Shown here piece after piece: positions 34,321 to 57,746 of a stretch of DNA of 64,000 nt. The stretch covers positions 186,001-250,000 of the forward strand of contig NZ_BLIV01000004.1 in assembly GCF_009811755.1 (NCBI RefSeq), read 5' to 3'. The position numbers were made by a program, and so were the translations under genes. This DNA comes from Roseobacter cerasinus (lineage in GTDB: Bacteria > Pseudomonadota > Alphaproteobacteria > Rhodobacterales > Rhodobacteraceae). Every line of letters starts with the position of its first letter. Position 1 is the first letter of the stretch. The notes beneath the pieces are model-generated. The model was not told the DNA's origin and did no database searches. It saw only the letters and a program-made list of their open reading frames with translations.

Positions 34321-34644
34321 ATCCGTGTCTCCTATATTCTGCTGCCCGCGGAATGCGGCAGCTTGGCTCGGTCGAAAGCAGATCGAGTGACTGGCCGAAA
34401 GGAGCAGTGGTCGATAGTTTGTCGCGTCGCACCCCCGATATTGTGTGCCGACCCTGCAAAAGCAAGTTAAATAAAAATGACAGCGCTTACCTAAAAACCG
34501 TCGGCGGATTCCCGCCCAGCGTGTATTGCTGAAAATTTCAGCGCTATATGACGCAGCGCACCAGAAAATTTTTTTACCAGTTGATAAAATTTTTTTAACG
34601 TGTCAGCCTTTTTCTCAATAGACAGCCAGAATGGGGTGACAACC
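34321..34644. promoter_or_regulatory. Divergent promoter region cspA / preT
   Basis: 324 bp with no gene, AT-richer than its surroundings, especially 34550-34610. It must hold the csp 5' UTR and promoter on the minus strand and the preT promoter on the plus strand. The one specific site I can assign is the RutR-like inverted repeat at 34573-34588. Confidence 0.6.
34573..34588. promoter_or_regulatory. RutR-like operator upstream of preT
   Basis: TTTACCA-GT-TGATAAA, a 7-2-7 inverted repeat with one imperfect pair. It matches the site at 38613-38628 at 13 of 14 arm positions and resembles the E. coli RutR consensus TTGACCA-N2-TGGTCAA. It lies 56 bp before the preT start. Confidence 0.65.
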
Positions 34645-35967
34645 ATGTCCAGCAACGCATTTACGCCGGGGATCGTGCCGGGCCGCATGGCGGCTGAGGC
34701 GTATAGTGAACAGTTCTCAGACCTGCATCCGCGTCTTGACGATCACGAGGCACTGGTCGCGGCCGACCGGTGCTATTTCTGTCATGACGCGCCCTGTATC
34801 ACCGCCTGCCCGACGGATATCGACATCCCGCTGTTTATCCGGCAGATCGCGACCGGCACCCCGGATGCGGCGGCCAAAACGATTCTGAGCCAGAACATCA
34901 TGGGTGGTATGTGCGCCCGGGTTTGCCCGACTGAGCAGCTTTGCGAGGAAGCCTGCGTGCGTGAGATGGCAGAGGGCAAGCCGGTTCTGATTGGTCAGTT
35001 GCAGCGCTATGCGACCGATCATTTGCAAGAACAGGGCATCCATCCGTTCTCCCGTGCTGCGGTCACCGGCAAGTCGGTGGCTGTGGTGGGGGCGGGGCCT
35101 GCGGGGCTCAGCTGTGCGCACCGGCTCGCGATGCTAGGGCATGATGTGGTCGTCTATGATGCGCAGCCCAAGGCTGGCGGACTGAACGAATACGGCATTG
35201 CCACCTACAAAACCGTTGATGGCTATGCGCAATCTGAAGTTGACTGGCTGCTGAAGATTGGCGGCATCCAGATTGACTATGGCAAGCGGTTGGGCGGCGA
35301 TATTACGCTGGCAGGTTTGCGCTCAGCGCATGACGCGGTCTTCCTGGGCATCGGCTTGGGCGGTGTAAATGCACTGGATGCAGAGGGCGCGGACAAGGAT
35401 GGTGTTCTCGATGCCGTCGATTTCATTGCCGATCTGCGACAGGCAGAGAGTTTTGCCGATGTTCCGGTGGGCCGCGATGTGGTGGTCATCGGCGGTGGCA
35501 TGACGGCGGTGGATGCGGCAGTGCAGGCCAAGCTGCTGGGCGCGCTGAACGTCACGCTGGTTTACCGCCGTGGACGCGACCGGATGAACGCAAGCGTCTT
35601 TGAACAGGATCTGGCCGCGAGTAAAGGCGTGCGTATTGTCACCCACGCGATGCCCAAGGCGGTGATCGGTAACGGCGCTGTGCGCGAGATCGAGTTCGAC
35701 TATGTAGACGATGCGATGCAGCCGACGGGTCAGACCTTGCGGCTGGCCGCCGATCAGGTCTTCCGCGCGATTGGCCAGACACTGGTCGGTGAAGACCTGC
35801 CGGAGCTTGATGGCCGCAAGATCAAGGTCACCGAGACCGGGCGCACCTCGCTCGCTGGCGTCTGGGCTGGCGGCGACTGTGCGGCTGGCGGCGACGATCT
35901 GACTGTGACCGCAGTGGCCGAAGGGCGCGACGCGGCCATGGATATCCACGCAACACTGACAGCTTGA
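34645..35967 (+). CDS. preT: NAD(P)-dependent dihydropyrimidine dehydrogenase subunit PreT
   Basis: FAD/Fe-S electron-input subunit (440 residues) of bacterial dihydropyrimidine dehydrogenase, first step of reductive uracil/thymine breakdown. The N-terminal Fe-S domain has CYFCHDAPCITACP and GGMCARVCPTEQLCEEAC. The FAD motif VVGAGPAGLSCAHR and NAD(P) motif VIGGGMTAVDAA follow. It resembles GltD-type oxidoreductases, but pairing with PreA 13 nt downstream fixes the role. The ATG at 34645 was chosen over an upstream in-frame ATG at 34600. Likely controlled by the RutR-like operator at 34573. Confidence 0.93.
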   Translation: MSSNAFTPGIVPGRMAAEAYSEQFSDLHPRLDDHEALVAADRCYFCHDAPCITACPTDIDIPLFIRQIATGTPDAAAKTILSQNIMGGMCARVCPTEQLCEEACVREMAEGKPVLIGQLQRYATDHLQEQGIHPFSRAAVTGKSVAVVGAGPAGLSCAHRLAMLGHDVVVYDAQPKAGGLNEYGIATYKTVDGYAQSEVDWLLKIGGIQIDYGKRLGGDITLAGLRSAHDAVFLGIGLGGVNALDAEGADKDGVLDAVDFIADLRQAESFADVPVGRDVVVIGGGMTAVDAAVQAKLLGALNVTLVYRRGRDRMNASVFEQDLAASKGVRIVTHAMPKAVIGNGAVREIEFDYVDDAMQPTGQTLRLAADQVFRAIGQTLVGEDLPELDGRKIKVTETGRTSLAGVWAGGDCAAGGDDLTVTAVAEGRDAAMDIHATLTA

Positions 35968-35980
35968 GGGAGGCTGAAAC

Positions 35981-37282
35981 ATGGCTGATCTGACAAGTGA
36001 CTTCATTGGCATCAAAAGCCCCAACCCGTTCTGGCTGGCCTCGGCGCCGCCGACGGATAAGGAATATAACGTGCGGCGCGCCTTCGAGGCCGGTTGGGGC
36101 GGGGTGGTCTGGAAGACTCTGGGTCTCGATCCACATGTGGTGAACGTAAATGGCCCCCGCTACGGCGCGGTCTATGGCGCGGATCGGCGGCTCTTGGGTC
36201 TGAACAACATCGAGTTGATCACGGACCGTCCACTGCAGACCAACTTGGATGAGATCAAGGTGGTCAAACGCGACTATCCTGACCGGGCCATGATTGTCTC
36301 CCTGATGGTGCCCTGCGAGGAAGAGCCGTGGAAGTTCATCCTGCCGCTGGTCGAGGAGACCGGTGCTGATGGGGTGGAGCTGAACTTCGGCTGCCCGCAC
36401 GGGATGTCAGAGCGGGGCATGGGCTCCGCAGTGGGGCAGGTGCCGGAGTACATCGAGATGGTCACGCGCTGGGTCAAGGCGAACACGCGCATGCCGGTGA
36501 TCGTGAAGCTGACGCCGAATATCACTGATATCCGCAAGCCTGCGGAGGCGGCGATGAAGGGCGGGGCGGATGCGGTCTCGCTCATCAATACGATCAACTC
36601 GATCACCAGCGTGGATCTGGATCTCTTTGCGCCGGAGCCGACGATTGACGGCAAGGGTGCGCATGGGGGCTACTGCGGGCCGGCGGTCAAGCCCATTGCG
36701 TTGAATATGGTCGCCGAGATTGCCCGTGATCCGGCCTTGGGGCAGATCCCCATTTCTGGCATCGGCGGGATCACCACCTGGCGCGACGCGGCGGAGTTCA
36801 TGGCGCTGGGGGCCGGCAATGTGCAAGTCTGCACGGCGGCCATGACTTACGGGTTCAAAATCGTGCAGGAGATGATCAGCGGGCTCAGTGACTACATGGA
36901 CAGCAAAGGGCTGACGTCGGTCGACGAGATCGTCGGGCGCGCGGTGCCGAATGTGACCGATTGGCAGTATCTGAACCTCAATTATGTGGCCAAGGCGAAA
37001 ATCAACCAGGATCTGTGCATCTCTTGCGGGCGCTGTTTCGCAGCCTGCGAGGACACGTCGCATCAGGCGATTGCCATGTCCGAAGATCGCACCTTTACCG
37101 TGATCGATGACGAATGTGTCGCCTGCAACCTCTGCGTCAATGTTTGCCCGGTCGAGGACTGCATCACCATGGAGGCCATGGCGCCCGGCACCACCGACCC
37201 GCGAACGGGCAAAGTGGTCGAGCCGGACTATGCCAACTGGACCACGCACCCTAACAACCCGGCTGCGAACGCCGCAGAATAA
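35981..37282 (+). CDS. preA: NAD-dependent dihydropyrimidine dehydrogenase subunit PreA
   Basis: Catalytic subunit (433 residues) that reduces uracil or thymine to the dihydropyrimidine. An FMN-binding TIM barrel contains NFGCPHGMSERGMGS and VKLTPNITDI. At the C-terminus are two 4Fe-4S motifs, CISCGRCFAAC and CVACNLCVNVCP, which receive electrons from PreT. In mammalian DPD the loop after GERGMG carries the catalytic Cys; here the same stretch reads GSAVGQ, with Val at the Cys position by eye. It ends 5 nt from the convergent hypothetical gene. Confidence 0.94.
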   Translation: MADLTSDFIGIKSPNPFWLASAPPTDKEYNVRRAFEAGWGGVVWKTLGLDPHVVNVNGPRYGAVYGADRRLLGLNNIELITDRPLQTNLDEIKVVKRDYPDRAMIVSLMVPCEEEPWKFILPLVEETGADGVELNFGCPHGMSERGMGSAVGQVPEYIEMVTRWVKANTRMPVIVKLTPNITDIRKPAEAAMKGGADAVSLINTINSITSVDLDLFAPEPTIDGKGAHGGYCGPAVKPIALNMVAEIARDPALGQIPISGIGGITTWRDAAEFMALGAGNVQVCTAAMTYGFKIVQEMISGLSDYMDSKGLTSVDEIVGRAVPNVTDWQYLNLNYVAKAKINQDLCISCGRCFAACEDTSHQAIAMSEDRTFTVIDDECVACNLCVNVCPVEDCITMEAMAPGTTDPRTGKVVEPDYANWTTHPNNPAANAAE

Positions 37283-37287
37283 CAAGA

Positions 37288-37761
37288 TCAGGCGTCGTCG
37301 CTTTGCAGGATCGGCGCGGTCGGCAGCGGGTTGGGCAGATCCACCTCAGGCTCTTGTGCTTCGGCGGCCGCCTCAGCAGCAGCGGCCGCACGTTCGGCGG
37401 CGCGTTCTGCATCCTGCGCTTCTTGAAGCGCCTTCGATTCGGCTCGAATCTTGGCCTGTTGATCCAGGAAGGCGTCAGGCACCTTGTTCTTCGTTTGGGC
37501 CTCCACCACCGATTTGGGCGACGCACCTACCGGTGGCATTGCAACGCGGCCACGCTCGAGCAGAGCCGCCAGATGCGTGCCGCCCGTGCCGGTTCTGTCT
37601 CGCGCGCCCTGACCGGAATGATCGGAAGACATATTGGCATTCTCGCCGGAGGTCTTCTTGGTTTCCGCGACGCGGCCCAGAAATGCTGCATTCTGGGCAT
37701 CGTGTTGTGCTGGCGCCACCGGCTGTGGCGCATATGGGGCATTGAAAGAAATCGCACTCAT
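37288..37761 (-). CDS. Hypothetical Ala/Glu-rich protein
   Basis: Protein of 157 residues with no family I recognise. The N-terminal half is low-complexity and polar. The C-terminal third is a strongly helical, probably coiled-coil stretch rich in Ala, Glu and Arg (about residues 110-145), ending in a Pro-rich tail with acidic end. The ATG at 37761 follows TTGGAGCAAGCC, a good SD, and was preferred to upstream in-frame ATGs (37779, 37809). It is convergent with preA and lies between preTA and the RutR-like gene. Confidence 0.65.
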   Translation of the reverse strand: MSAISFNAPYAPQPVAPAQHDAQNAAFLGRVAETKKTSGENANMSSDHSGQGARDRTGTGGTHLAALLERGRVAMPPVGASPKSVVEAQTKNKVPDAFLDQQAKIRAESKALQEAQDAERAAERAAAAAEAAAEAQEPEVDLPNPLPTAPILQSDDA

Positions 37762-37876
37762 GGCTTGCTCCAATTTCATTCGCAGTTCGAAGCCGCCACC
37801 CGCATCCATTAAAACAATATGAATACTAACTGTGTGTTAAAGCGTAGCCTTATTTTGCCGAAGGGTTAGCAAGCTC

Positions 37877-38494
37877 TTAAGGCGTCAGGAGCTTGGTAAA
37901 CACTGTTTCGAGATAAGCTGCGGCACCGTCGTGGCTGCTGGGATCATCTCGCAACAGGACTTTCACCTGCGCATCGAAATCGGCGTAGTGCTGGGTTGTT
38001 GCCCAGATCGAGAAGATCAGATGCCGCGGATCGACATGGGCCAGATCGCCACGATCCATCCAAGTCTTTATCACGGAACATTTTTCATCAAAAAGCGGTT
38101 GCAGTCCGGAGATCAGATGCGGTGCCATGCGCGGCGCGCCTTGCAGGATTTCTCCGGCAAAAAGCCGGCTTTCGCGCGGCAGATCCCGGGCCATGTCAAG
38201 CTTGCGCTGCACATAGCCCAGAATTTCCTGCAACGGGTCCCCCTTGGGGTCAAGTGTTACCAGCGGGTCGAGCCAGGTCTCCATCAACTGGTTCAGGAGG
38301 GTCAGATGTATCTCTTCTTTGCCGTCGAAATAGTAAAGTATGTTCGGTTTGCTGAGGCCTGCTGCCTCGGCGATCTGGTCAAGGGTTGCGCCGCGATAGC
38401 CATGTTTTGAAAAGACATCGAGCGCGGCATCAAGAATGCGGCGGCGGTTGCGTTGCTGGATCCGGCTGGGTTTCTTCTCTACGCCATCAGGCAA
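37877..38494 (-). CDS. rutR: RutR-like TetR-family regulator of pyrimidine use
   Basis: About 205 residues with an N-terminal TetR helix-turn-helix (AALDVFSKHGYRGATLDQIA, then GLSKPNILYYF) and a RutR-type C-terminal domain. The segment DPRHLIFSIWATTQHYADF is close to E. coli RutR, where this region forms part of the uracil pocket. In E. coli RutR senses uracil and represses pyrimidine degradation. Start choice is uncertain: TTG at 38494 has GGAGA at good spacing, and an in-frame GTG at 38509 is an alternative. It is divergent from the amidohydrolase gene with a perfect operator between them. Confidence 0.88.
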   Translation of the reverse strand: MPDGVEKKPSRIQQRNRRRILDAALDVFSKHGYRGATLDQIAEAAGLSKPNILYYFDGKEEIHLTLLNQLMETWLDPLVTLDPKGDPLQEILGYVQRKLDMARDLPRESRLFAGEILQGAPRMAPHLISGLQPLFDEKCSVIKTWMDRGDLAHVDPRHLIFSIWATTQHYADFDAQVKVLLRDDPSSHDGAAAYLETVFTKLLTP

Positions 38495-38612
38495 AGGCTG
38501 TCTCCGCACAAGGGTGCTGCAAAATTCGGCGTTTCGGACAATGCCGCTCCACTCCCGCGCGAAACCCAGAAAAGGACCTCTTGACTTGGCATGGCCTAAT
38601 CGCAATCGTGTC

Positions 38613-38628
38613 TTTACCAAATGGTAAA
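38613..38628. promoter_or_regulatory. RutR-like operator between rutR and the amidohydrolase gene
   Basis: Perfect inverted repeat TTTACCA-AA-TGGTAAA with 7-bp arms and 2-bp spacer, 46 bp before the amidohydrolase start. It matches the geometry of the E. coli RutR site TTGACCA-N2-TGGTCAA, differing at one base per arm. A second copy is at 34573. TTGACT at 38581 may be a -35 box. Confidence 0.75.
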
Positions 38629-38673: not shown

Positions 38674-39924
38674 ATGCCCGCGCCCGGACAGAACCTGAAG
38701 ATCAACTCCGACCGGCTCTGGGACAGCCTGATGGAGATGGCCAAGATCGGCCCCGGCGTGGCGGGCGGCAACAACCGTCAGACGCTCACGGATGAGGACG
38801 CCGAAGGCCGCGCGCTGTTTCAGAGCTGGTGCGAGGCGGCGGGCTGCGAGATGGGGCTCGACCAGATGGGCAATATGTTTGCCCGGCGTGAGGGCACGGA
38901 CCCCGAGGCGCTGCCCGTCTATGTGGGCAGCCATCTCGACACACAGCCCACGGGGGGCAAGTATGACGGGGTGCTGGGGGTGCTTGGCGGGCTGGAGATC
39001 CTGCGCACGCTGAATGATCTGAATGTGAAGACCAAGCACTCGATTGTGGTGACGAATTTCACCAATGAGGAGGGCACGCGTTATGCGCCGGCGATGCTGT
39101 CCTCAGGCGTGTTCGCGGGCATTCACACGCAGGAGTGGGCTTACGGGCGGGTGGACGCCGAGGGGAAGGCGTTCGGCGATGAGCTGCAGCGCATTGGCTG
39201 GCGCGGCGAAGAAGAGGTGGGCGCGCGCAAGATGCACGCCTTCTTTGAGCTGCACATCGAACAGGGGCCCATTCTGGAGGCCGAGGGCAAGGATATCGGT
39301 GTGGTCACCCATGGCCAGGGGCTGAGCTGGACGCAAGTGACCATCACCGGCAAGGACAGCCACACCGGCTCGACCCCGATGCCGATGCGCAAGAATGCGG
39401 GCCTCGGCATGGCGCGGGTGCTGGAGAAGGTCGATGAGATTGCCTGGAGCCACGCGCCCCATGCGGTGGGTGCTGCGGGGCATATCGACGTCTATCCGAA
39501 CTCGCGGAACGTGATCCCGGGCAAGGTGGTGTTCACGGTCGATTTCCGCTCGCCCGATCTGTCGGTCATCGAGGATATGGAGGCGCGGCTTAGGACAGAG
39601 GGCCAGACCATCGCCGAGGAGATGGGGCTGGAGATGTCCTTTGAGAAGGTGGGCGGGTTCGACCCGGTGGCCTTTGACGAGGGCTGTGTGACGGCGGTGC
39701 GTGATGCGGCGGAGCGGCTGGGGTATTCTCATATGAACCTGATTTCCGGCGCCGGGCATGATGCTTGTTGGATCAATCGCGTCGCACCCACCGCGATGGT
39801 GATGTGTCCTTGCGTCGATGGGTTGAGCCACAATGAGGCGGAAGAGATTTCCAAGGAGTGGGCCATGGCGGGGGCCGATGTGCTGCTGCATGCGGTGGTC
39901 GAGACGGCGGAGATTGTCGGGTGA
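38674..39924 (+). CDS. M20-type amidohydrolase, beta-ureidopropionase / N-carbamoyl-amino-acid hydrolase
   Basis: Binuclear-metal amidohydrolase of 416 residues expected to split N-carbamoyl-beta-alanine to beta-alanine, CO2 and ammonia, the third step of reductive pyrimidine breakdown. Metal-site motifs are visible: GSHLDTQPTGGKYDG, NEEGTRYAPAM, and FELHIEQGPILE; SGAGHDACWI supplies the last His. The frame runs upstream to 38386, but the ATG at 38674 follows AGGAAGGACCCC and gives the family N-terminus. First gene downstream of the operator; the stop overlaps the next start as GTGA. Confidence 0.9.
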   Translation: MPAPGQNLKINSDRLWDSLMEMAKIGPGVAGGNNRQTLTDEDAEGRALFQSWCEAAGCEMGLDQMGNMFARREGTDPEALPVYVGSHLDTQPTGGKYDGVLGVLGGLEILRTLNDLNVKTKHSIVVTNFTNEEGTRYAPAMLSSGVFAGIHTQEWAYGRVDAEGKAFGDELQRIGWRGEEEVGARKMHAFFELHIEQGPILEAEGKDIGVVTHGQGLSWTQVTITGKDSHTGSTPMPMRKNAGLGMARVLEKVDEIAWSHAPHAVGAAGHIDVYPNSRNVIPGKVVFTVDFRSPDLSVIEDMEARLRTEGQTIAEEMGLEMSFEKVGGFDPVAFDEGCVTAVRDAAERLGYSHMNLISGAGHDACWINRVAPTAMVMCPCVDGLSHNEAEEISKEWAMAGADVLLHAVVETAEIVG

Positions 39925-40325: not shown

Positions 40326-41786
40326 ATGAGCAAGGTGATCAAGGGCGGTCAGGTCTGCACGGCGGATCGGACGTGGGAAGCGGATGTGCTGATCGAGGGT
40401 GAGGTGATCAAACAGATCGGCGAGGATCTCGCGGGCGATGAGTATATTGATGCGGAGGGGGCTTATGTGATCCCGGGCGGGATTGATCCGCACACGCATC
40501 TGGAGATGCCATTTATGGGCACGACCGCCGCCGAGACCTTCGAGAGCGGCACCTGGGCGGCGGCGGTGGGCGGCACCACGATGGTGGTGGATTTCTGTCT
40601 GCCGGGCGAGGACGGCTCGATCAGGAATGCGATTGGGGAGTGGCATCGGAAGTCGGCGCCGCAGATCTGCTCGGATGTGGGCTATCACATGGCGATTACC
40701 GGCTGGAATGAGAGTGTCTTCAACGAGATGAAAGACGCCGTTGAGATGGGGGTGAACTCCTTCAAGCATTTCATGGCCTATAAGGGCGCGCTGATGGTGG
40801 AGGACGATGAGATGTTCGCCTCCTTCCAGCGCTGTGCGGAACTGGGCGCGCTGCCGATGGTACATGCGGAGAATGGCGATGTGGTCGCCTCTCTGCAGGA
40901 GAAATATTTCAACGAAGGCATTACCGGGCCGGAGGGGCATGCCTACTCGCGGCCGCCCGAGGTGGAGGGCGAGGCGGCGAACCGGGCGATCATGATTGCA
41001 GATGCGGCGAATGTGCCGCTCTATATTGTGCATGTGTCCTGCGAGCAGGCGCATGAGGCGATCCGGCGCGCGCGGCAGAAGGGCATGCGTGTCTATGGGG
41101 AGCCGCTGGTGCAGTTTCTGACGCTGGATGAATCTGAGTATTTCAATAGAGATTGGGACCACGCGGCGCGGCGGGTGATGTCGCCGCCGTTCAGATCGAA
41201 GGACCATCAGGACTCGCTTTGGGCCGGGCTGCAGGCGGGGTCGCTGCAGGTCGTCGCGACGGATCATGCGGCGTTCAACACGGAGCAGAAGCGGGCCGGG
41301 CGTGAGGATTTTCGGATCATTCCCAATGGCTCGAACGGGTTGGAAGAGCGGCTGGCCGTGCTCTGGACCGAAGGGGTGGAGACCGGGCGGCTGACGCCGA
41401 ATGAGTTTGTGGCCTGCACCTCGACCAATGTGGCGAAAATCCTGAATATCTATCCGCGTAAGGGGGCGATTGTGGAAGGGGCGGATGCGGATATCGTGGT
41501 GTGGGATCCGAAGATCACCAAGACGATTTCGCCATCGAACCACCATTCGGTGCTGGATTACAACGTGTTTGAGGGCTTCGAGGTCAAAGCGCAGGCGCGC
41601 TATACGCTGAACCGCGGCGAGGTGATCTGGGCCTGGGGGCAGAACTCGCAACCGAACCCGGGGCGCGGGCGGTTCATCCCGCGGCCCGCCTTCCCGAGCG
41701 CGCACAAAGCGCTGAGCAAGTGGAAGGCGCTGACCGCGCCGAAGATGATCGAGCGCAATCCGATGAATATTCCGGCGGGGATTTGA
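40326..41786 (+). CDS. hydA: Dihydropyrimidinase
   Basis: Cyclic amidohydrolase of 486 residues that opens dihydrouracil to N-carbamoyl-beta-alanine. The zinc motif GGIDPHTHLEMPF, the carboxylated lysine in the FKHFMAYKGA region, and later VATDHAAFN are present, as expected for the D-hydantoinase/dihydropyrimidinase family. SD-like GGGAGAGATG precedes the ATG. Together with preTA and the amidohydrolase all three reductive-pathway steps are encoded here. Confidence 0.95.
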   Translation: MSKVIKGGQVCTADRTWEADVLIEGEVIKQIGEDLAGDEYIDAEGAYVIPGGIDPHTHLEMPFMGTTAAETFESGTWAAAVGGTTMVVDFCLPGEDGSIRNAIGEWHRKSAPQICSDVGYHMAITGWNESVFNEMKDAVEMGVNSFKHFMAYKGALMVEDDEMFASFQRCAELGALPMVHAENGDVVASLQEKYFNEGITGPEGHAYSRPPEVEGEAANRAIMIADAANVPLYIVHVSCEQAHEAIRRARQKGMRVYGEPLVQFLTLDESEYFNRDWDHAARRVMSPPFRSKDHQDSLWAGLQAGSLQVVATDHAAFNTEQKRAGREDFRIIPNGSNGLEERLAVLWTEGVETGRLTPNEFVACTSTNVAKILNIYPRKGAIVEGADADIVVWDPKITKTISPSNHHSVLDYNVFEGFEVKAQARYTLNRGEVIWAWGQNSQPNPGRGRFIPRPAFPSAHKALSKWKALTAPKMIERNPMNIPAGI

Positions 41787-41814: not shown

Positions 41815-42225
41815 ATGAACCTCATTTTGTCCATGTTTGCCTGTTTCACGGCTGTTCTAGCTGGGGCTCTCGCCGTCTGCGTTGTGACAATGATTCTGGA
41901 TTCGGGACCGTTGGCATTTCTTGAAGGGGTTGGAGTGTGGGTATTTGGGCAAATCGCAATCCTTCCACTCGCATTGATGTCGATGCCAGTTGGAGCCCTA
42001 CTGCGAATGGTTCTCGGCTTGATATTCAGCAATCCCAGACTTGTTGCCTTGAATACTGGACTTCTAGTTGGTTCGATCGGGGCCGCGTTAGTTAGCGCTG
42101 GGACCAGTCAGAGCTCGCTACCTGACCATTTGATCTCCATCGCAATTGGAGGATGCGCTGGGCTTGTCGGAGGGTGGGTTTGGTGGCGCATCGAACGCCG
42201 TCATTTGGAGGCTTTTGCCCAATGA
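41815..42225 (+). CDS. Small hydrophobic membrane protein of lower G+C
   Basis: 136 residues with about four hydrophobic segments (around residues 4-25, 35-60, 70-90 and 95-120). No family recognised. Codon use and base composition are visibly more AT-rich than the flanking genes, with many TT- and AA-ending codons, suggesting later acquisition. It lies 28 nt after hydA, and its stop overlaps the ABC ATPase start as ATGA, so it is translated in register with the operon. It could be a transporter accessory or a passenger gene. Confidence 0.65.
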   Translation: MNLILSMFACFTAVLAGALAVCVVTMILDSGPLAFLEGVGVWVFGQIAILPLALMSMPVGALLRMVLGLIFSNPRLVALNTGLLVGSIGAALVSAGTSQSSLPDHLISIAIGGCAGLVGGWVWWRIERRHLEAFAQ

Positions 42226-43040
42226 TTGTTGAGCAGTTAAAGGATGCGACCGAGTTCCATCGGGTGGAACCTGTTATCTCCGCCAAAAACCTCGATCTGA
42301 CCTTCCAGACGAACGACGGGCCGGTGCATGCGCTGAAAGATGTCTCCCTGCAGATCGGCAAGGGCGAGTTTGTCAGCTTCATCGGGCCCTCGGGCTGCGG
42401 CAAGACGACGTTTTTGCGCTGCATGGCGGATCTGGAGCATCCAACGAGCGGTGAGATCACCGTAAATGGGGTCAGCCCGGAGGAGGCGCGGAAAGCGCGC
42501 TCCTATGGCTATGTGTTTCAGGCCGCCGGGCTTTATCCCTGGCGCACGATTGGCGGGAACATCCGTTTGCCGCTGGAGATTATGGGGTATTCCAAACATG
42601 ATCAGGCCGAACGGGTGGCCCGCGTGCTGGAGTTGGTGGAGCTTGCCGGTTTCGAGAAGAAATATCCCTGGCAGCTCTCGGGCGGCATGCAGCAGCGCGC
42701 ATCGATTGCGCGGGCGCTGGCGTTTGACGCGGATATTCTGCTGATGGACGAGCCCTTTGGGGCGCTCGATGAGATTGTGCGGGATCACCTGAATGAGCAA
42801 CTGCTGAGCCTTTGGGCGCGGACGGAGAAGACGATTGCCTTTGTGACGCACTCGATCCCGGAGGCGGTCTATCTCAGCACCAAGATTGTCGTGATGTCAC
42901 CACGCCCGGGTCGGATTACGGATGTGATCGAAAGCCCTTTGCCGAAGGAGCGCCCCTTGGACATTCGCGACACGCCTGAGTTTCTGGAGGTGGCGCATCG
43001 TGTCCGGGAAGGCCTGCGCGCGGGGCATCTGGATGACTAG
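42222..43040 (+). CDS. ABC importer ATP-binding protein (SsuB/TauB/ThiZ class)
   Basis: ATPase of 272 residues. Walker A GPSGCGKTT, signature LSGGMQQRASIARA, and Walker B ILLMDEPFGALDE put it with the nitrate/taurine/HMP-type importers. The start at 42222 overlaps the preceding stop. Partner permeases and binding protein follow at 43281-45996. In this setting the likely cargo is a pyrimidine or an early breakdown product. Confidence 0.93.
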   Translation: MIVEQLKDATEFHRVEPVISAKNLDLTFQTNDGPVHALKDVSLQIGKGEFVSFIGPSGCGKTTFLRCMADLEHPTSGEITVNGVSPEEARKARSYGYVFQAAGLYPWRTIGGNIRLPLEIMGYSKHDQAERVARVLELVELAGFEKKYPWQLSGGMQQRASIARALAFDADILLMDEPFGALDEIVRDHLNEQLLSLWARTEKTIAFVTHSIPEAVYLSTKIVVMSPRPGRITDVIESPLPKERPLDIRDTPEFLEVAHRVREGLRAGHLDD

Positions 43041-43190
43041 CTGGGGAAAAATGGCCCGGACGCGCCGACCGCAATCAGTCCGCCCGAGTCCATTCCGCTG
43101 TTTGTGTGGGGAAGCGGGGTCCCCTTTCATCGTTCACGGTCATCGGCATGCCTGCCTGTACCGTCCCGTCATCAGAGCGCATGATCCTTT

Positions 43191-43210
43191 CATTGTTCTT
43201 AAAATATGCA
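43191..43210 (-). repeat. Dispersed short repeat, copy E (inverted)
   Basis: Minus-strand reading TGCATATTTTAAGAACAATG, a slightly diverged copy facing copy D. Confidence 0.7.
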
Positions 43211-43241
43211 CGATCCCGCGATCTGCATTTGCTTCGACGCT

Positions 43242-43265
43242 TGCATATTTGTGGAACAATGAAGC
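43242..43265 (+). repeat. Dispersed short repeat, copy D
   Basis: TGCATATTTGTGGAACAATGAAGC followed by AGAGG; as with copy B the extension provides an SD and is followed by TGCGTCATG at the next gene start. Confidence 0.8.
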
Positions 43266-43280
43266 AGAGGCGTGTGCGTC

Positions 43281-44144
43281 ATGAGGCAGAGTGTGCTGCC
43301 TGTTCTGACCGTTGTGGCCGGAATTTTTGTGATCTGGTATCTGGCCTCGATCTGGCTGAATGCGGCCTGGGCCTATGACAAGGCCACCCGGTCGGGCGAG
43401 GAGTTGGGGGTTGTGGCGCTGGTGGCGGATACCTGGAGCCAGGAGAAGCCGAAGCTTCCGGCGCCGCATCAGGTGGGCGTGGAGATCTGGGACACGACCA
43501 TTGAGAAGAAGATCACCTCGAAGCGGTCGCTGATTTATCATTCGTGGATCACGCTGAGTGCGACGTTGTTGGGCTTTGCGCTTGGGACGGGGCTCGGGAT
43601 CGCGCTGGCGGTGGGAATTGTCTACAACCGCACCATGGATATGTCGGTGATGCCGTGGGTCATTGCCAGCCAGACCATCCCGATCCTGGCGATTGCGCCG
43701 ATGATCATTGTGGTGTTGAACGCGGTGGGCATCTCGGGGCTGCTGCCGAAGGCGATGATTTCGATGTATCTGTCGTTCTTCCCCGTTGTCGTGGGTATGG
43801 TGAAGGGGTTGCGCAGCCCGGATGCAATGCAGTTGGATCAGATGCGCACGTGGAATGCGTCGCCCTCCCAGACGTTCTGGCGGCTGCGCTTGCCCTCGTC
43901 GATGCCGTATCTTTTTACCTCGCTGAAGATCGGCATGGCGGCCTCGCTGGTGGGGGCGATTGTTGGTGAGCTGCCGACCGGTGCGGTGGCGGGCTTGGGC
44001 GCGCGGCTGCTGGCGGGGAGCTACTATGGGCAGACGATCCAGATCTGGTCGGCGCTGATCATGGCGGCGGCGCTGGCCGCGGCGCTGGTGGCGATCATCG
44101 GGCTTTTGCAACGGGTCACGCTCAGACGGATGGGCATGGCATGA
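43281..44144 (+). CDS. ABC importer permease 1
   Basis: Inner-membrane permease of 287 residues of the BPD_transp_1 family with about six helices and the EAA-like loop (MRTWNASPSQTFWRLRLPSS). An in-frame GTG at 43272 is an alternative start; the ATG at 43281 is preceded by AGCAGAGG. The stop overlaps the second permease by 4 nt (ATGA). Confidence 0.9.
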   Translation: MRQSVLPVLTVVAGIFVIWYLASIWLNAAWAYDKATRSGEELGVVALVADTWSQEKPKLPAPHQVGVEIWDTTIEKKITSKRSLIYHSWITLSATLLGFALGTGLGIALAVGIVYNRTMDMSVMPWVIASQTIPILAIAPMIIVVLNAVGISGLLPKAMISMYLSFFPVVVGMVKGLRSPDAMQLDQMRTWNASPSQTFWRLRLPSSMPYLFTSLKIGMAASLVGAIVGELPTGAVAGLGARLLAGSYYGQTIQIWSALIMAAALAAALVAIIGLLQRVTLRRMGMA

Positions 44145-44983
44145 TCTGGCTTATCTTTGCATTTGGCGTCTGGGGATTGGGCTGGTGGGTGAACACCCGG
44201 CTGGCCGCTGCGCCGCGCACGCGCGTGACCGGGCTGGTGGTACCGCTGATTTTTGGGATCACGCTGATTGCGATCTGGGAGGGCGTGGTCCGGGGGCTGG
44301 AGATCAGCCCGGTGCTGCTGCCTGCGCCCTCGATGATTGCGGCGCGTTTCGTGGCGTCGACCGATATCCTCTGGGAGGATTTTGTGCAGACCGTAATCAA
44401 GGGCGCACTGAGCGGCTACGTGCTTGGCTGTGGGTCGGCGTTTCTGGTCGCCATCCTGGTGGACCGGTATGATTTCCTACGCCAGGGACTTCTGCCTGTC
44501 GGCAACTTTGTGGCTGCGCTGCCGGTGATTGGCATGGCACCTATCCTGGTCATGTGGTTCGGCTTTGACTGGCAGTCGAAGGCTGCGGTGGTCGTCGTGA
44601 TGGTGTTCTTCCCGATGCTGGTGAACACGGTGCAGGGCCTTGCTGATAGCTCAGCCATGCAGCGCGACCTGATGCGCACCTATGCCGCGGGGTATTGGGC
44701 GACGCTGTTGAAGCTGCGGCTGCCTGCGGCCATGCCATTTATCTTCAACGGGCTGAAGATTGCCAGCACACTTGCGCTGATCGGCGCGATTGTGGCGGAA
44801 TTTTTCGGCTCGCCCATCCGCGGGATGGGCTTTCGTATTTCCACCTCCGTAGGACAACTTGCGCTCGATCTGGTCTGGGCGGAAATTGTTGTCGCGGCGG
44901 TGGTGGGATCAGCGTTCTACGGGATCGTGGCGCTGGTCGAACGGGCGGTGACCTTCTGGCACCCGTCTCAACGACACTCATAA
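44141..44983 (+). CDS. ABC importer permease 2
   Basis: Second permease, 280 residues, BPD_transp_1 family, with the coupling loop in LMRTYAAGYWATLLKLRLPA. Having two different permeases implies a heterodimeric channel. It is followed 20 nt later by the binding-protein gene. Confidence 0.9.
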   Translation: MIWLIFAFGVWGLGWWVNTRLAAAPRTRVTGLVVPLIFGITLIAIWEGVVRGLEISPVLLPAPSMIAARFVASTDILWEDFVQTVIKGALSGYVLGCGSAFLVAILVDRYDFLRQGLLPVGNFVAALPVIGMAPILVMWFGFDWQSKAAVVVVMVFFPMLVNTVQGLADSSAMQRDLMRTYAAGYWATLLKLRLPAAMPFIFNGLKIASTLALIGAIVAEFFGSPIRGMGFRISTSVGQLALDLVWAEIVVAAVVGSAFYGIVALVERAVTFWHPSQRHS

Positions 44984-57237: not shown

Positions 57238-57746
57238 AATATGACCTTGGATATGTATTTGTGGTGAGCCTTGCAGGCTGCGGGCGCGTTGTAAACGGCC
57301 TCGTGTCAGATATGGCTTCGTTGTGGGGGCTGTGGATGGCCGCAGGAGCGCGTGGGTTTGGCGGGGAGAGGCCATCGGCCGGTGTCCGCCGTTTTGGATG
57401 ATGCAGCCTTAGCGGGCGATTCGCTGTATGCGAGAAACCTGAGCCTGCGAGCGAGAGGCATGTTGCTATTCGTGCCGAGATCGGCCTGGGCTGTATGCAA
57501 TTGCATACCGATCTTTCAGATACGCGACGTACACGAAAAAGTTACCAAGATGTAAACATTGATAAAATCGGCTAACCAAGAAAGTTCTTTACAGAAGGAT
57601 AGCGCTATCGAAAAAACGTTTACAAAAAATACCAATTAAACCAGTAAGAAAGGGAAATCATTTACAGATTGATGTAGGGTCTTGAGGCGCGCTGGCCGTG
57701 TTCCCGCCTGTGGGGGCCGCTGTTGGCGCCACAGGAGGAGGACACC
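57238..57746. promoter_or_regulatory. Divergent control region, efflux adaptor / acs
   Basis: 509 bp without a credible gene. The half nearest acs (57490-57680) is strikingly AT-rich. It contains the 16-bp palindrome at 57493, a 12-bp palindrome GATAGCGCTATC (57598-57609), one TGTAAA (57551-57556) and three TTTACA sites (57588, 57619, 57661). Which serve acs or the pump operon cannot be told. Confidence 0.6.
57493..57508. promoter_or_regulatory. Perfect 16-bp palindrome GTATGCAATTGCATAC
   Basis: Exact palindrome in the acs/efflux divergent region. The form resembles GntR-type operators. No regulator gene of that type is in the window. Confidence 0.55.

Follow-up and report, generated by a model that had tools for sequence, protein, structure and literature searches.

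Two Matching Operators Around a RutR-Family Regulator Gene Point to Control of Reductive Pyrimidine Breakdown in Roseobacter cerasinus

In Roseobacter cerasinus, a 64,000-nucleotide (nt) stretch of contig NZ_BLIV01000004.1 (assembly GCF_009811755.1, positions 186,001 to 250,000; hereafter the window) carries the genes of the reductive pyrimidine pathway on both sides of a TetR-type regulator gene, with preT-preA, encoding the two subunits of dihydropyrimidine dehydrogenase (DPD), on one side and hydC, hydA and the genes of an ATP-binding cassette (ABC) transporter on the other. It is highly probable that this regulator is a RutR-family repressor lying between its targets, which acts through one operator of 7-2-7 form at each promoter, blocks RNA polymerase and is released by uracil, possibly also by thymine. 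We infer binding, ligand and sign of regulation from the sites, their placement relative to the predicted promoters, how well they are conserved, how they depend on the regulator, and the ligand pocket. The system is very likely a PydR-like repressor of the RutR family that governs reductive pyrimidine breakdown, a kind of switch already known in other bacteria; what appears to be new is that the preT operator seems to double as part of its promoter and that the hydC site directly follows the predicted -10 element.

Operator Sites of the Two Pathway Operons

The site ahead of preT (TTTACCAGTTGATAAA) and that ahead of hydC (TTTACCAAATGGTAAA) have identical left arms and right arms differing by a single base (TGATAAA versus TGGTAAA), with 13 of the 14 arm bases in agreement. 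An earlier note made from the window sequence had proposed this pair, and scans of both the window and the genome confirmed it. In the window, three matches with at most three mismatches to TTTACCANNTGGTAAA were found against 0.42 expected from shuffled sequence, the third of them (three mismatches, at 57541) being unrelated to this system. The genome-wide scan suggested in the same note returned, over 4.47 Mb and at up to two mismatches, only two places, which are the preT and hydC sites. When both upstream regions were resampled 3000 times with a Markov model, palindromes arose in both regions 304 times and no pair shared 13 of 14 bases.

Another pattern, TTKACCRNNYGRTMAA, matched the genome with at most one mismatch at 25 forward and 32 reverse places, compared with 13 and 15 for its backward control. 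Four of these places beyond the window were inspected as possible further targets, two of them inside open reading frames (ORFs) and two outside. TTTATCGCATGGTCAA, located between ORFs and upstream of a gene that by eye resembles one for a solute-binding protein (L140 1501-1516, equal to G000:C2:521583-521598), is a possible third target.

Conservation of the Sites and Dependence on the Regulator

The regulator search gave matches in 126 of 149 genomes of the family, distant paralogues included, and 100 loci were chosen from these matches, with some genomes represented twice and one locus being the second copy of the present genome. Upstream of preT in the linked regions (window included), the site was found in 67/67 cases at up to three mismatches and in 65/67 at up to two, while Markov resamples of the preT and hydC upstream regions gave sites at up to three mismatches in 15/1520. 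At the same threshold such sites were nearly absent upstream of preA (0/67), hydA (1/82), the ABC ATPase gene (1/84) and the binding-protein gene (1/70), and the sites therefore mark two promoters. Ahead of hydC, 51 of 85 regions hold a site within three mismatches of the window form and 71 within four, many family members carrying TTGACCA-NN-TGGTCAA or TTGACCG..GGTCAG instead.

The preA gene itself was detected in 128 of the 149 genomes, and 40 additional preA loci were fetched, 29 from regulator-bearing genomes and 11 from genomes with preA that lack an orthologous regulator. Of the former, 28 include preT, and all 28 have the site within three mismatches; two of these loci (G018, G066) lie within about 7 kb of the regulator, and the other 26 are unlinked, that is, at least 25 kb away or on another contig, some of these being contigs of draft genomes that need not be far apart. 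Altogether, the preT site accompanies 69/69 linked and 26/26 unlinked preT genes of regulator-bearing genomes, a set of 95 out of about 117 such genomes with preA. In the regulator-less genomes the site was found in 3/10, and in 1/7 of those at least 90% complete; one of the 11 loci, where preT is cut by a contig end, is left aside, and the 11 comprise one genome with only a 35% match (G059) and two placed there by elimination (G146, G147). Two of the three genomes that keep the site may simply miss the regulator, since they are less than 90% complete. The difference between 95/95 and 3/10 gives a Fisher p of 5e-9, and about the same value is obtained against 1/7, although both are optimistic because of shared ancestry. 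Control of both operons by the regulator, as put forward in the earlier note, is thus well supported at the sequence level by the co-occurrence of site and regulator, by the sites at unlinked preTA loci and by a conserved uracil pocket.

The Regulator and Its Uracil Pocket

The RutR-like character attributed to the TetR gene holds, as its product is 47% identical to Escherichia coli RutR over 181 amino acids (aa), has this protein as its closest PDB match (5.1e-49) and passes the Pfam gathering scores of TetR_N (55.6; 24) and TetR_C_3 (152.4; 25), which places it in the RutR superfamily. It scores below the curated RutR cut-offs of TIGR03613 (216.9 versus 368 bits) and NF011584 (185.5 versus 230); the former is strict, since E. 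coli passes it and none of 349 genomes sampled across the phylum does. In E. coli RutR, uracil is contacted by W77, Y97 (via water), W167, Q171 and Q179 of the partner chain, according to passages of PMC10891134. The equivalents of all five residues are kept in the window regulator and are invariant in 88/88 regulators of its type (window included) and in 23/23 copies of a second RutR-family type, in an alignment that excluded matches at most 45% identical to the queries.

In a tree of 53 proteins, which is unrooted and could not be rooted with these data (outgroup root-to-tip path of 10), 35 DPD-linked regulators together with the second RutR-family protein of this genome are split from the RutR-type proteins with support of 100/95. 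The RutR-type side contains E. coli RutR and 15 others, nine of which have rutA within 1.5 kb. The window regulator falls in an alphaproteobacterial group, whereas genes of two other families (f38 and f60) group with the second regulator type.

The resemblance to the E. coli system extends from the TetR family, the sequence identity and the pocket to a 7-2-7 site between the regulator and a divergent target. RutR binds between rutR and the rut operon in E. coli (passages of PMC10891134), and the best match found between rutA and rutR has, as the earlier note expected, the 7-2-7 form, though with other letters (TGGACTAAACGGTCAA), 9 of the 14 arm bases being shared with the sites described here. 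The E. coli protein differs in controlling the oxidative rut operon, in the letters of its site and in its separate position in the tree. Another parallel is PydR of Pseudomonas putida, described in the title of Hidese et al. (2012, J. Biochem. 152:341; reference list of PMC7332683) as a RutR-like repressor of the DPD gene; the present locus has the arrangement of a PydR-type regulator in that a RutR-like gene is linked to DPD genes with a shared operator. The view of RutR as rewired from the oxidative pathway was accordingly not upheld: the protein is below the RutR cut-off and grouped apart with DPD-linked regulators, 18 of 26 loci of other families have a RutR-family gene near preA, and PydR, judging by that title, is a precedent.

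The second RutR-family protein (L119 8982-9608; G000:C1:394387-394977, minus strand) is encoded divergently from an apparent binding-protein gene, behind which lie genes of an ABC transporter, these ORFs having been read by eye with no family search. The intervening gap holds CTGCACGATCGTGCAG, a perfect palindrome that may be the operator of this second protein. Some relatives (e.g., L043, L075, L097, L102, L106 and L114) have two RutR-family regulators in one pyrimidine locus, and in L122-L127 it is a regulator of the second type that lies beside hydC, with sites resembling TTGACCG or CTGACC..GGTCAG.

Predicted Promoters and Mode of Repression

The right half of the preT operator contains TTGATA, read as a -35 hexamer, in 57 of 67 linked relatives (window included). 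It is followed by nAnnnT at 16 nt in 34/57 and at 17 nt in 24/57, counts in which a row may appear twice and which have no chance control, and the two bases preceding the -10 at the 17-nt spacing are mostly GG (26) or TG (21). Among the ten preT sites without TTGATA, three retain an in-site TTGNNA and five have a separate downstream TTGNNA placed 16-17 nt from nAnnnT. On the hydC side, TTGAC and a -10 recur upstream in 70 regions (window included), and the operator begins a few bases past the -10. The preT half-site thus seems to double as a -35 hexamer, and the odd base of this site may be kept because TTGATA is read in that role. Other readings of the preT promoter were dropped, namely a sigma-54 type judged by eye, for which the GC at -12 is not conserved, and FNR and NtrC types, because the spacing does not fit their consensus.

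In the proposed mechanism, the repressor would cover the -35 element of preT-preA, and at the hydC-hydA-ABC operon would occupy the expected start site immediately beyond the -10, keeping RNA polymerase off both promoters when bound. Uracil, possibly also thymine, would enter the RutR-type pocket and release the repressor, and release would switch on uptake together with the reductive pathway, whose end products are beta-alanine, CO2 and ammonia. No paper on the overlap of half-site and -35, or on the operator change described below for the Roseobacter group, was found in the open-licence PubMed Central (PMC) literature, most subscription papers and RegPrecise lying outside its reach.

Alternative Explanations

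Several observations weigh against this repressor model or limit it. The pattern read backward matches the genome at four places per strand, more than the real pattern, so that the genome-wide count by itself shows no enrichment; the weight lies in the position of the two matches ahead of the two pathway operons. A scan for E. coli consensus promoters called neither the preT nor the hydC promoter, both being too far from consensus, and the predicted promoters consequently stand on conservation. Two preT sites without TTGATA (L050, L137) show no -35/-10 pair of the kind described, 14 of the 85 family hydC regions have no site within four mismatches, and 16 of 80 named loci, nine of them Shimia, have no hydC-side site within two mismatches in 700 nt. 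These named loci, here and below, are those with the nearest regulators, the best 80 of 160. The regulator-less genome G063 speaks against strict dependence on the regulator: at 99% completeness, it retains TTTAGCGTTTGATAAA, which differs from the preT consensus by a single base.

A first alternative concerns the inducer. Uracil and thymine are both expected substrates of the reductive pathway, the transporter could import other compounds, and the conserved contacts suit a pyrimidine-like ring without telling which one. With operators and repressor as proposed, the signal might then be thymine, a dihydropyrimidine or a ureido intermediate acting through a retuned pocket, which is unlikely though not negligible, as all five uracil-touching residues of E. 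coli RutR are unchanged in the 88 proteins compared. It is considerably less probable that another regulator, such as the second RutR-family protein of this genome, is the main binder of both sites. That protein has the same pocket residues as the window regulator, a point against the main reading, and genes of its type adjoin hydC in some relatives; however, where they do so the site is mostly TTGACCG or CTGACC..GGTCAG rather than TTTACC, the second-type relative in this genome adjoins transporter genes elsewhere, and the preT site tracks the presence of the first regulator. There is very little probability that the preT element is just a conserved -35 region whose likeness to the hydC site arose by chance. 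TTGATA does read as a -35 and belongs to a conserved block, but the left arm TTTACC, outside the -35, is conserved too, a separate -35 follows the palindrome in five relatives, and the element is missing in seven of ten regulator-less genomes.

Operator Variation in the Roseobacter Group

Roseobacter species provide the named genomes with the most similar regulators, at up to 91% identity. Among the named loci, 43 have a hydC-side site of the TTT/TTT form, 19 a TTT/TTG hybrid, one a TTG/TTG and one a TTG/TTT site. The preT site is exactly TTTACCRNTTGATAAA in 50 of the 80; four of the remaining 30 are too short to search, and others may end before preT. These distributions suggest, with fair though clearly lower confidence than for the repressor itself, that two operators of one repressor evolve under unlike constraints: the preT operator would be held asymmetric by its -35 duty, while the hydC operator would be free to drift arm by arm in the Roseobacter group from TTGACC..GGTCAA to TTTACC..GGTAAA, converging on the preT sequence, in a direction read from unrooted comparisons. 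A matching change of regulator specificity (several residues differ, e.g., position 61, S to G, and position 55, L to I) was considered by comparing 10 loci of the TTTACC..GGTAAA form with 25 of the TTGACC..GGTCAA form and is not claimed, since descent confounds the comparison; one locus (L046) runs counter to this idea in combining a window-type helix with a TTGACC site.

Features of the Locus

The features of the locus are listed in Table 1, and the layout of preT-preA, TetR gene and hydC-hydA-ABC-binding protein is conserved in most fetched relatives. For preT, no NCBIfam model was over its cut-off among the 25 of 63 matches listed. The start of the regulator gene is uncertain (GTG at 38509 or TTG at 38494), and its longest ORF, from 38653, would cross the operator. 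NF006769 bears the family name allantoate amidohydrolase and places hydC by family only, the beta-ureidopropionase role being suggested by context. The ABC transporter is a probable uptake system for pyrimidines or dihydropyrimidines.

Table 1. Predicted and annotated features around the regulator gene (window coordinates).
Feature	Position	Strand	Basis or remark
preT operator TTTACCAGTTGATAAA (TTTACCA-GT-TGATAAA)	34573..34588	+	Upstream of preT-preA; sequence scan and conservation
TTGATA in right half of preT operator, read as -35 hexamer	34581-34586	+	Conserved in relatives
Predicted preT -10 hexamer CAGCCT	34604..34609	+	17-nt spacer, TGT just before; nAnnnT recurs in relatives 16 or 17 nt past TTGATA
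preT, NAD(P)H/Fe-S subunit of DPD	34645..35967	+	Pfam Fer4_20 119.8 bits, Pyr_redox_2
preA, DPD catalytic subunit	35981..37282	+	NF006183 727.4 bits (cut-off 335), as for NAD-dependent PreA
ORF, 173 aa, between preA and regulator	37288..37809	-	No family match; not counted as part of the system
RutR-family TetR regulator gene	37877..38509	-	TetR_C_3 152.4 bits; between the two operators
Predicted hydC promoter: TTGACT 38581-38586, 17 nt, AATCGT 38604-38609	38581..38609	+	TTGAC and -10 region recurrent in relatives
hydC operator TTTACCAAATGGTAAA (TTTACCA-AA-TGGTAAA)	38613..38628	.	Between regulator gene (-) and hydC (+), ahead of hydC-hydA-ABC; 3 nt past predicted -10
hydC, M20-family amidase (hydantoinase/carbamoylase group), probable beta-ureidopropionase	38674..39924	+	NF006769 691.2 bits (cut-off 452); TIGR01879 399.5 (cut-off 204)
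hydA, dihydropyrimidinase	40326..41786	+	TIGR02033 584.8 bits (cut-off 393.25)
ABC transporter ATPase and two permeases	42222..44983	+	Pfam ABC_tran, BPD_transp_1
Likely binding protein after ABC permeases	ending 45996		Likely identity, without a family search

Distribution and Implications

Outside the family, preA was detected in 36 of the 57 preA-positive genomes among the 349 sampled, and 26 of these loci were fetched. In 18 of them a RutR-family gene, in one case truncated where the fetched sequence ends, stands no more than about 9 kb from preA, and in the other eight none was found. A RutA gene at most 1.5 kb from a RutR-family gene occurs in 10/30 loci of the phylum RutR search; the 101 family sequences (the window and 100 loci) and the 26 wider loci show no such pair. 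In this genome no RutA was over the cut-off (best 46.1 versus 498.3 bits), leaving no recognized oxidative rut operon for the regulator to control. Leyn et al. (2016, PMC5343134) predicted RutR regulons of pyrimidine catabolism across 13 proteobacterial groups (68 genomes), with motif substitutions that are specific to the taxon, and parts of the main text of that paper do not list Rhodobacterales RutR genes or motifs; likewise, nothing bearing on a regulator of the reductive pathway was present in portions of PMC4344238, PMC7142369 and PMC9736018.

Within the family, RutA exceeded the cut-off in one of 149 genomes (G042), which has no preA and was considered as a case of pathway swap under the same regulator. 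This was rejected, as no TTKACCRNNYGGTMAA site within two mismatches was found in 12 kb around rutA, and the regulator remains beside hydC-hydA with the site CTGACCAATTGGTCAA. This genome holds two RutA-like genes (L252 4761-5822 and 6940-8004), with a possible GntR-type regulator gene adjoining by eye; no RutR-type site within two mismatches was found near them. In a distant family (f37; L208, L209 and L217), TTTACC..GGTAAA-type sites stand before preT beside RutR-family genes, and the same operator letters may have arisen there separately. Four loci of family f38, which may be Pseudomonas-like to judge by their layout, have no TTKACCRNNYGGTMAA site within one mismatch, and their preA-adjacent RutR-family genes fall with the second regulator type and not with the window regulator, a possible difference from PydR.

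To judge from the gene neighbourhoods, RutR-family proteins seem to be common regulators of the reductive pathway among Pseudomonadota with DPD, and the pairing with the oxidative pathway known from E. coli is therefore not the whole picture. The overlap of half-site and -35 would explain why one of two operators of the same protein stays imperfect, and the differing constraints, if true, provide a natural series in which the overlap of operator and promoter, and the tuning of a uracil sensor's operators, can be followed. For a large group of marine bacteria, the locus offers a regulon of pyrimidine use that is concrete and open to test.

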